A stretch of 64,000 bases of DNA. Source: Sphingobacteriaceae bacterium. GTDB taxonomy: Bacteria > Bacteroidota > Bacteroidia > Sphingobacteriales > Sphingobacteriaceae. The position numbers were made by a program, and so were the translations under genes. This document shows positions 14,277 to 14,730 of the stretch, in pieces (the first letter of the stretch is position 1; every line of letters starts with the position of its first letter). The notes beneath the pieces are model-generated. The model searched no databases, was not told where the DNA came from, and saw only the letters and a list, made by a program, of their open reading frames with translations. Location: assembly GCA_947463785.1 (NCBI GenBank), contig CANHRG010000002.1, forward strand, positions 124,001-188,000, in the 5' to 3' direction.

Positions 14277-14301
14277 TTTGGCGGAGAGAGAGGGATTCGA
14301 A
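14277..14301 (-). repeat. Duplicated 3' end of tRNA-Ser (att-like copy 2, tRNA remnant)
   Basis: On the minus strand it reads from TTCGAATCC of the T-arm through the acceptor strand and CCGCCA to AAA. It is identical over 25 bp to 14641-14665 inside the real tRNA. The sequence before it (a TGGCGAG/CTCGCCA hairpin) is not tRNA, so this is a fragment and cannot make a tRNA. Confidence 0.9.
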
Positions 14302-14340
14302 TGGCGAGGTAAACTCGCCACCACGAGCTAAGCCTCGTGG
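14302..14340 (-). other. Two adjacent perfect hairpins at the 3' end of the GIY-YIG gene
   Basis: 14302-14320 is TGGCGAG/CTCGCCA with a 5-nt loop. 14321-14340 is CCACGAG/CTCGTGG with a 6-nt loop that contains the TAG stop of the nuclease gene. They lie between the stop codon and the tRNA-Ser remnant. The second stem recurs in the terminator at 14243-14269. Neither hairpin is followed by a T run on the minus strand, so simple termination does not explain them. Confidence 0.75.
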
Positions 14341-14606
14341 CCCCCAATATCTTCTAGGCCATACTTACCAATAAACTTTTTAAGATCAACGGTGTTAAGG
14401 TTCTTTAATTTACGTTCCAGAATCAAGGCTTCACCCCGACTATTCTTTAGAATAGAACAAACCAGTATCCAAGGTAAATAAGGCTTTGTTGAAAATTCAT
14501 AACCAGCATTATGTCGAACTAAACGCTGAGCTAAATCGGCAGTTTGACCAATATAATACCGATTATAATTAATCGAATAAAGAATATAAACAGCAAATTT
14601 TGCCAT
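14328..14606 (-). CDS. GIY-YIG single-domain nuclease (UvrC N-terminal-like)
   Basis: 92 aa, one complete GIY-YIG domain and nothing else. VYILYS and YYIGQT give the two halves of the motif, RLVRHN supplies the conserved Arg, and LILERKLKNL the metal-binding Glu. Such small proteins (URI/YhbQ-like) are frequent in Bacteroidota and are often labelled excinuclease subunit C. The ATG is 37 bp downstream of the CCA end of tRNA-Ser on the same strand, with the tRNA's terminator hairpin in between. The stop lies inside a hairpin that abuts a copy of the tRNA 3' end. This placement suggests a tRNA-associated mobile gene. Its target and activity are unknown. Confidence 0.85.
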   Translation of the reverse strand: MAKFAVYILYSINYNRYYIGQTADLAQRLVRHNAGYEFSTKPYLPWILVCSILKNSRGEALILERKLKNLNTVDLKKFIGKYGLEDIGGHEA

Positions 14607-14613
14607 AAATACA

Positions 14614-14637
14614 AAATCCCGCTACTATGCGGGATTT
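14614..14637 (-). terminator. Hairpin terminator between tRNA-Ser and the GIY-YIG gene
   Basis: A perfect 9-bp stem (14614-14622 with 14629-14637) around a 6-nt loop, followed on the minus strand by a short T-rich tail. It starts 4 bp after the tRNA's CCA and ends just before the nuclease ATG at 14606, so it would end the tRNA transcript or lie in the nuclease leader. Confidence 0.7.
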
Positions 14638-14640
14638 CAA

Positions 14641-14665
14641 TTTGGCGGAGAGAGAGGGATTCGAA
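14641..14665 (-). repeat. 3' end of tRNA-Ser (att-like copy 1)
   Basis: This copy is identical to 14277-14301. It comprises the end of the T-arm, the acceptor 3' strand, the discriminator G and CCA, plus two A beyond it. It is part of the functional tRNA gene. Confidence 0.9.
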
Positions 14666-14730
14666 CCCCCGGACCTTTGACAGTCAACGGTTTTCAAGAC
14701 CGCCGCAATCGACCACTCTGCCATCTCTCC
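14643..14730 (-). tRNA. tRNA-Ser(TGA)
   Basis: Read on the minus strand, acceptor GGAGAGA pairs with TCTCTCC, followed by discriminator G and an encoded CCA. The D-arm contains AGAGTGGTCGA, and the anticodon loop CTTGAAA gives TGA. The long variable arm (built on TTGACTGTCAA) is typical of class II serine tRNAs, and the T-arm is GGGGGTTCGAATCCC. It reads UCA and other UCN codons. A promoter with both elements lies directly upstream. Confidence 0.97.

Follow-up and report, generated by a model that had tools for sequence, protein, structure and literature searches.

A GIY-YIG nuclease gene flanked by repeated tRNA halves recurs across Bacteroidota and may belong to a minimal homing-type element

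Introduction

SegB is a free-standing GIY-YIG homing endonuclease of T-even phages (PMC13096335; PMC2988022). It cuts within tRNA genes with a preference for RAWTSGAAC, drives recombination-dependent tandem amplification of tRNA genes together with segB, and cuts its own tRNA region in vitro (PMC13096335). The reverse complement of this motif, GTTCSAWTY, can be equated with the tRNA T-loop, which reads GTTCGAATC in the DNA studied here; the equation is ours and not the wording of that paper. SegB resembles the elements described below in three respects: a GIY-YIG gene lies beside tRNA genes of many isotypes, the motif equals the T-loop, and tandem amplification proceeds by homologous recombination. 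It differs in being phage-borne, and a split host tRNA, a replacement half and a hairpin-plugged displaced copy are not described for SegB in the portions of these reports available to us. A search of the open-access literature, preprints excluded, returned this phage paper as the only directly relevant one on GIY-YIG genes at bacterial tRNA genes.

A second likeness comes from mitochondria. In Allomyces, the mitochondrial atp6 gene was reportedly invaded by a GIY-YIG ORF that carries a replacement 3' end of atp6. The nuclease gene is thus said to enter an essential gene, bring a copy of the gene end and displace the original, although the target there is a protein gene in mitochondrial DNA. 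We know of no hairpin plug and no mirror form, with a duplicated 5' half, in that system.

Double-hairpin elements (DHEs) of fungal mitochondria consist of two adjacent GC-rich hairpins, sometimes inside RNA genes, and are thought to be mobile (PMC10085805; Paquin et al. 2000 as cited there). They share with the present elements the paired, adjoining hairpins and their occasional location in RNA genes. DHEs are mostly intergenic repeats that are not tied to a nuclease gene, whereas the hairpins here lie in a displaced tRNA copy. The family closest to our protein in sequence and fold is UPF0213/SLX1. SLX1 differs in being a repair nuclease that works with SLX4, and no link between UPF0213 and the invasion of RNA genes was found in the reports consulted.

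Here we describe a GIY-YIG gene and its tRNA-Ser locus in a 64-kb stretch of DNA (the window), together with related loci in other Bacteroidota.

Architecture of the tRNA-Ser locus

An intact, functional tRNA-Ser(TGA) gene was identified with ARAGORN at 14643-14730 on the minus strand, the strand of all features described in this section. It is the single tRNA-Ser(TGA) gene found in the window genome (1.8 Mb), as far as the partial search of that genome reaches, with other matches attaining only 75-81% identity. The locus lies well within a 406-kb contig. In minus-strand order it comprises the tRNA, a terminator-like hairpin, the GIY-YIG gene, GGGGG, two adjoining hairpins, a second TTCGAATCCCTCTCTCTCCGCCAAA and a terminator.

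The replacement half, attached to the tRNA, is the 3' part of the tRNA from the T-loop on (TTCGAATCCCTCTCTCTCCGCCAAA, 14641-14665). The terminator-like hairpin, recognized from its sequence (AAATCCCGC...GCGGGATTT, 14614-14637), lies between the tRNA and the start codon of the GIY-YIG gene (14328-14606, 92 aa). The last codons of this frame cross a tRNA remnant, GGGGG (14341-14345), which is the 5' strand of the T-stem of the displaced copy, and the stop codon TAG falls inside the first hairpin (CCACGAGGCTTAGCTCGTGG, 14321-14340). The second hairpin (TGGCGAGTTTACCTCGCCA, 14302-14320) directly adjoins the displaced tRNA-Ser 3' end (14277-14301), whose 25 bp are 100% identical to 14641-14665. A terminator palindrome at 14243-14269, 3' of the displaced end, is presumably the original terminator of tRNA-Ser, as comparison with the empty site described below suggests.

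The preliminary description of the window had reported a 25-bp repeat of the tRNA-Ser(TGA) 3' end at a distance of 364 bp, a 92-aa GIY-YIG gene on the same strand between the two copies, a terminator at 14243, and no integrase. All of its coordinates proved right: the repeat is the exact 25-mer TTTGGCGGAGAGAGAGGGATTCGAA at 14277-14301 and 14641-14665, spaced by 364 bp, and GIY-YIG is the sole gene between the repeats. The sequences of its "two more hairpins" were likewise recovered, but the two form one double hairpin that starts exactly at the repeat edge, between GGGGG and TTCGAATCCC. The break in the displaced copy therefore coincides with the border of T-stem and T-loop, and the T-stem GGGGG lies on the far side of the hairpins from the 25-bp repeat. 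The proposal of insertion at the tRNA 3' end with restoration holds for the restoration but not for the site, as the tRNA is split at the T-loop and its 3' half is replaced. Both hairpins persist when the region is folded as single-stranded DNA. A group I or group II intron or other self-splicing element was rejected, since an Rfam scan of 14000-14900 returned the tRNA and no intron, and the tRNA is uninterrupted.

The GIY-YIG protein

The window protein matches the GIY-YIG domain above the Pfam cut-off (E = 4.8e-13). Y7, Y18, G20, R28 and E64, which include the tyrosines of the GIY and YIG motifs, Arg28 and Glu64, are invariant in 21 relatives, and a median dN/dS of 0.10 over 10 comparable pairs indicates purifying selection. 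The gene thus has what is expected of a homing gene, an intact endonuclease with its catalytic motifs maintained by selection.

By profile and fold, the nearest solved relatives are UPF0213 (1zg2, E 4.5e-10) and SLX1 (E 2e-4), with I-TevI weaker; Foldseek also placed 1zg2 first. The protein accordingly has a UPF0213/SLX1-like GIY-YIG fold by both sequence and structural similarity. The AlphaFold2 model has a mean pLDDT of 90. The protein is essentially little more than the catalytic domain. Being such a bare domain, and akin to UPF0213 and SLX1 rather than to I-TevI, the protein does not suggest a long sequence-specific target.

Recurrence across Bacteroidota

A first scan with the window protein against one genome per species gave 29 loci, all in Bacteroidota where the group is named and most with a tRNA nearby. 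A profile built from 21 of these loci was searched in 395 Bacteroidota genomes, 170 of which carry at least one match, with a maximum of 13 genes per genome. With 80 further regions added, the locus set comprised 190 related GIY-YIG genes. A tRNA or tmRNA gene on the same strand lies within 300 bp of 123 of these, with the GIY-YIG gene behind it in 96 cases and before it in 27, and only two have one nearby on the opposite strand. At roughly 50 tRNA genes in 4 Mb, we estimate the chance of a tRNA within 300 bp at about 1%. The other 65 genes are mostly inner members of arrays or lie at contig ends.

The host RNA genes comprise tRNAs for Ser, Arg, His, Met, Pro, Asp, Asn, Lys, Gln, Gly, Val, Ala, Thr, Tyr, Phe, Leu, Trp and Ile, and a tmRNA. 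Units measure 315-600 bp with GIY-YIG as their only gene, and tandem arrays of them are clear, for example in genome G299, where a large contig has five units spaced by 315 bp. Many of the sampled genomes are draft or metagenome-assembled, and arrays were found inside multi-megabase contigs as well. The elements are chromosomal, unlike SegB; carriage by phages was rejected, as 2.9 million viral contigs yielded only four weak matches.

Draft contigs often stop at or near elements (L073, L092, L104, L109, L112, L126, L132), which would be expected if assemblies break at tandem copies. tRNA genes at such contig ends may be missed or cut in annotations.

Two forms of the displaced copy

Two arrangements were observed. 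In the common form, a repeat of the 3' part of the tRNA lies behind the gene and often includes the terminator. In the mirror form, about a fifth of cases (for example L016, L019, L107 and L146), a repeat of the 5' part, with upstream DNA that can extend to 100 bp or more, precedes the gene, and the intact tRNA comes after it. Let A and B be the tRNA parts on either side of the loop position, C1 a terminator copy, A' a copy of part of A, and P either a single hairpin or a hairpin pair; the common form then reads A-B-C1 / GIY / A'-P-B-C and the mirror form C'A'-P-B' / GIY / C'A'-B. An element thus gives back to the tRNA either its 3' half, along with a terminator, or its 5' half, along with a promoter. 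Both forms occur once in the window genome, the common one at the window locus and the mirror one (L001) at tRNA-Arg(CCT).

The repeat is present at 80 of the 96 common-form and 25 of the 27 mirror-form loci and ranges from about 20 to more than 100 bp; no displaced copy was detectable at the other 16 loci with the gene behind the tRNA. Under a stricter selection, a displaced copy follows 72 of 86 gene-bearing tRNAs and 2 of 42 control tRNAs without the gene (Fisher P = 8e-19), so the exact 25-bp repeat of the window is not a chance event. The control set replaced random pairing of loci, a null contaminated by related loci. Both exceptions among the controls look like derelict elements that have lost the gene and kept the hairpin-bearing tRNA sequence. 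At the tRNA-Val loci L184 and L187, the GIY-YIG gene is gone or unrecognizable and a displaced tRNA part with a hairpin remains.

The survey called for in the preliminary description, of GIY-YIG genes near tRNAs with a duplicated tRNA end, therefore found the architecture to be recurrent. The possibility raised there that the 25-bp copy is what remains of a decayed complete second tRNA-Ser does not stand: half-genes with a terminator or promoter recur behind many tRNA types, with the range of repeat lengths given above.

Hairpins in the displaced copy

Displaced copies are split by perfect hairpins, often paired, mostly at the T, D or anticodon loop. We delimited the inserts by aligning each displaced copy with its intact tRNA, without consulting folding. 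Of the inserts so delimited, 20 of 27 fold better than at least 198 of 200 shuffled sequences (median z -3.9); examples are GGTTTGGGG/CCGCGGGGTAAACCCGCGG-TGGCGGGCAAGGCCCCGCTA/TTCGAATCCC in L005 and GAGGG/TCCCGACGTTTCAGTCGGGA-TGCTGACCAAAGCGTCAGCA/TTCGAAACCC in L011. Inserts lie in or adjoin a loop in 64 of 81 cases against 46 expected (P = 3e-5). In some lineages, such as those at Pro, Ala, Met and Val tRNAs, a hairpin replaces the whole anticodon arm; in some clades two or three loops of the same displaced copy bear hairpins, and in L108, L130 and L124 P is a single hairpin.

The second hairpins of eight elements, hand-picked for equal length, were aligned. Among their cells 98% are paired, and five of seven pairs have changed on both sides; the covariation score of 0.78, compared with 0.21 in shuffled alignments, was reached by none of 500 shuffles. 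Judged by these comparisons, the hairpins are an integral, conserved part of the element. Their role would most likely be to spare the displaced copy and to make collapse of the repeat through the upstream arm lethal.

The hairpins had no match in Rfam at gathering scores. As in DHEs, two adjacent stable hairpins are present. The hairpins would probably not be a genome-wide dispersed repeat: within the 64-kb window, a scan gave 10 hairpin pairs, against 3-7 in shuffled sequence, with just one clearly GC-rich pair, another point of contrast with DHEs.

In a lineage at tRNA-Ser(GCT) (L099, L131, L093, L110, L164, L082), the end motifs T[CT]CG...CGGA are common to the hairpins across genera and loops. 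These inserts contain an inner ATCTCG or its complement, as if the hairpin were a recurring sequence family.

Empty sites and probable mobility

The preliminary description had suggested looking for an empty tRNA-Ser site in relatives, and such sites exist. Two genomes of the same genus, G004 and G005, retain the tRNA-Ser neighbors on both flanks and lack the GIY-YIG gene. Their common gene order is citrate synthase, a lipoprotein-like gene, tRNA-Ser and a homologue of the window gene at 12491-14101, and the tRNA is followed directly by a terminator. In none of five same-genus genomes does a GIY-YIG gene stand behind tRNA-Ser(TGA). The tRNA-Ser of G004 is identical to that of the window (88 of 88 bases). 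After the repeat, the displaced window copy reads on as CCGCCAAAC, like the empty site in G004, and the tRNA-attached copy continues as CCGCCAAATTG; because of this match of a few bases, we suggest that the displaced copy is the original tRNA end.

A second case was found in another genus (g15), where the tRNA-Pro(TGG) locus is occupied in G191 (a four-unit array), G054 and G424, and G410, G414 and G416 have the same upstream flank without the gene. G424, with a truncated gene, and the empty G416 have the upstream flank, terminator and downstream flank all in common. Presence and absence at one site with matching flanks, as expected of a homing gene, is therefore seen at both the tRNA-Ser and the tRNA-Pro(TGG) locus. 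These empty sites in two genera bear out the core of the earlier proposal, a minimal cassette that enters a tRNA gene and restores it with no integrase. Together with the lineage data below they support a putatively mobile element, whose nuclease would cut the tRNA gene.

Lineages and host RNA genes

Comparison of the proteins with tRNA identity, also proposed in the preliminary description, was made on a tree of 117 proteins, whose short sequences leave many forks unresolved. The tree follows the anticodon of the host tRNA, with 54 changes compared with 86-97 on shuffled data, and the 3' or 5' form, with 13 changes compared with 20-27. On 94 rows, host-family changes number 55 compared with 60-70 shuffled, and anticodon changes in the same rows 45 compared with 67-78. 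Because anticodon changes are far fewer than in shuffled data and family changes only slightly fewer, the lineages appear to be bound to a particular tRNA more closely than to a bacterial family. Elements that home to one site and pass from host to host, switching target now and then, would be expected to show this pattern. The element at the tmRNA (L166) groups with one at tRNA-Ser (L173); the two have the same T-loop site, GGTTC/GA, and a similar hairpin pair.

Proposed mechanism

From the observed architecture, empty sites, arrays, hairpin conservation and lineage structure, we infer with moderate confidence a minimal homing-type element, whose nuclease would act at loops of RNA genes and which would bring its own replacement half-gene. 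The nuclease would break the target at the position marked by the hairpins, and repair would install the replacement half, the gene and the hairpins together. By analogy, SegB offers the strongest outside support for cutting at tRNA loops.

In a first step, the nuclease would break the loop position of an RNA gene on an element-free chromosome; in the empty tRNA-Ser gene the predicted cut is GGGGG/TTCGAATC. Recombination with an element-bearing copy would then repair the break. Pairing of the A end with A, and of the B-C end with B-C downstream, would let B-C1-GIY-A'-P be copied in and make the tRNA whole again; the occupied loci beside empty sites with the same flanks are the observed counterpart of this outcome. 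Recombination between the direct repeats may have been the route to the tandem arrays. Finally, P would remove the displaced copy as a target, and collapse of the repeat through A and A' would leave a broken tRNA, which would favor retention.

Several observations are difficult for this mechanism. The main one is that the intact tRNA of the occupied window genome is identical to that of an empty genome, so that a nuclease reading the tRNA sequence alone would cut its own host as well. A degree of self-cutting may be tolerable, since SegB cuts its own tRNA region in vitro. The bare catalytic domain and its kinship with UPF0213 and SLX1 do not favor a long target sequence, 16 of the 96 loci with the gene behind the tRNA lack a detectable displaced copy, and the hairpins in several loops of some clades are unexplained by a single cut site.

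Alternative explanations

The circular order of the parts, which is one and the same in the arrays, the 3' form and the 5' form, admits another reading. A structure-specific nuclease of the SLX1/UPF0213 type may have the hairpin pair as its substrate, with P as a pair of element termini; cutting between the hairpins, or recombination between repeats, would free a linear or circular GIY-A'-P-B unit, and ends-in or single-crossover recombination would bring this unit into a tRNA gene again. This accords with the nearest folds of the protein, with a P that is usually paired and conserved in structure as its sequence diverges, and with the similar P and common end motifs in both forms of one Ser(GCT) clade. 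We nevertheless consider it unlikely, as P is a single hairpin at some loci and the two or three hairpin-bearing loops seen in several remnants would be superfluous for termini.

The tRNA-type specificity of the tree could also reflect action on RNA. The GIY-YIG protein would then cleave or process its cognate tRNA, as a toxin-like or maturation factor, with the displaced part as a decoy or control element and the loop hairpins protecting the element mRNA. The hairpins do replace loops that an RNase might attack, the anticodon arm included, and the displaced copy adjoins the gene on the same strand. However, the empty sites, the arrays and the flank-exact presence and absence are marks of DNA mobility, a partner gene is absent, and most GIY-YIG enzymes whose function is known act on DNA, which makes this reading improbable.

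tRNA 3' ends are classical attachment sites of integrases, and the T-arm is the start of many of the repeats, so that the units could be satellites of integrase islands, mobilized in trans by a tyrosine recombinase with the nuclease as cargo. The analogy with an integrase attachment site drawn in the preliminary description fails in detail: units of 315-600 bp hold a GIY-YIG gene and no recombinase gene, the breaks fall inside the T, D or anticodon loop and in tmRNA, the repeat has no fixed length, and in the 27 mirror cases it is the 5' half that is duplicated and the intact tRNA lies on the opposite side. We rejected an attachment site on these grounds and regard the satellite reading as very improbable. 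Partial tRNA duplications are known in bacteria, but an ordinary tandem duplication of the tRNA end beside an unrelated resident gene is scarcely credible given the association of displaced copies with the gene, the shared strand in 123 of 125 cases and the presence and absence between close relatives, and is already refuted by the control tRNAs unless these are unrepresentative.

Implications

The homing-type element that we favor would be among the smallest mobile elements known, a selfish gene living in an uninterruptible gene without intron, intein or integrase. It is apparently a widespread, minimal kind of mobile element that has not been described in the open-access literature searched. 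More tentatively, it could form a new class of selfish element, in which a cassette of one gene breaks essential genes for structured RNAs (tRNA, tmRNA) at loops and survives because it carries a replacement half along with a promoter or terminator of its own; the hairpins would disable the displaced half, so that collapse would kill the essential gene and loss be prevented. We hold this broader claim as a possibility rather than a probability.

The hairpin positions would serve as natural, conserved marks of the sites in tRNA genes at which a GIY-YIG nuclease may act, and would link bacterial chromosomes to the recent work on SegB. Such elements may likewise be the source of many small "GIY-YIG family" genes in Bacteroidota genomes, as well as of many partial tRNAs and contig breaks there; being present in 170 of the 395 sampled genomes, they offer a large, directly testable set.

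Related sequences at other loci

A related GIY-YIG gene lies within the RNase P RNA gene at L145 (1136-1744), L102 and L105, with RNase P on the minus strand. Perfect arms of 17 bp (CCAGCACATAACGTTCA and TGAACGTTATGTGCTGG) flank the insertion, which is apparently in the P3 loop and has no duplicated half; the RNase P RNA of these loci would be interrupted or in two pieces.

A different small GIY-YIG gene in G004 (L039) is not beside a tRNA, and its flanks look like dispersed repeats (GTCATTTCGACGATCCC...). Downstream of the element in the window, at 14100-14200, the palindromic sequences GGATTGCCTTCGGCGATCCC and AAGCGGCTGCGCCGCT resemble sequence near the empty site in G004 and are possibly a genus-specific dispersed repeat.
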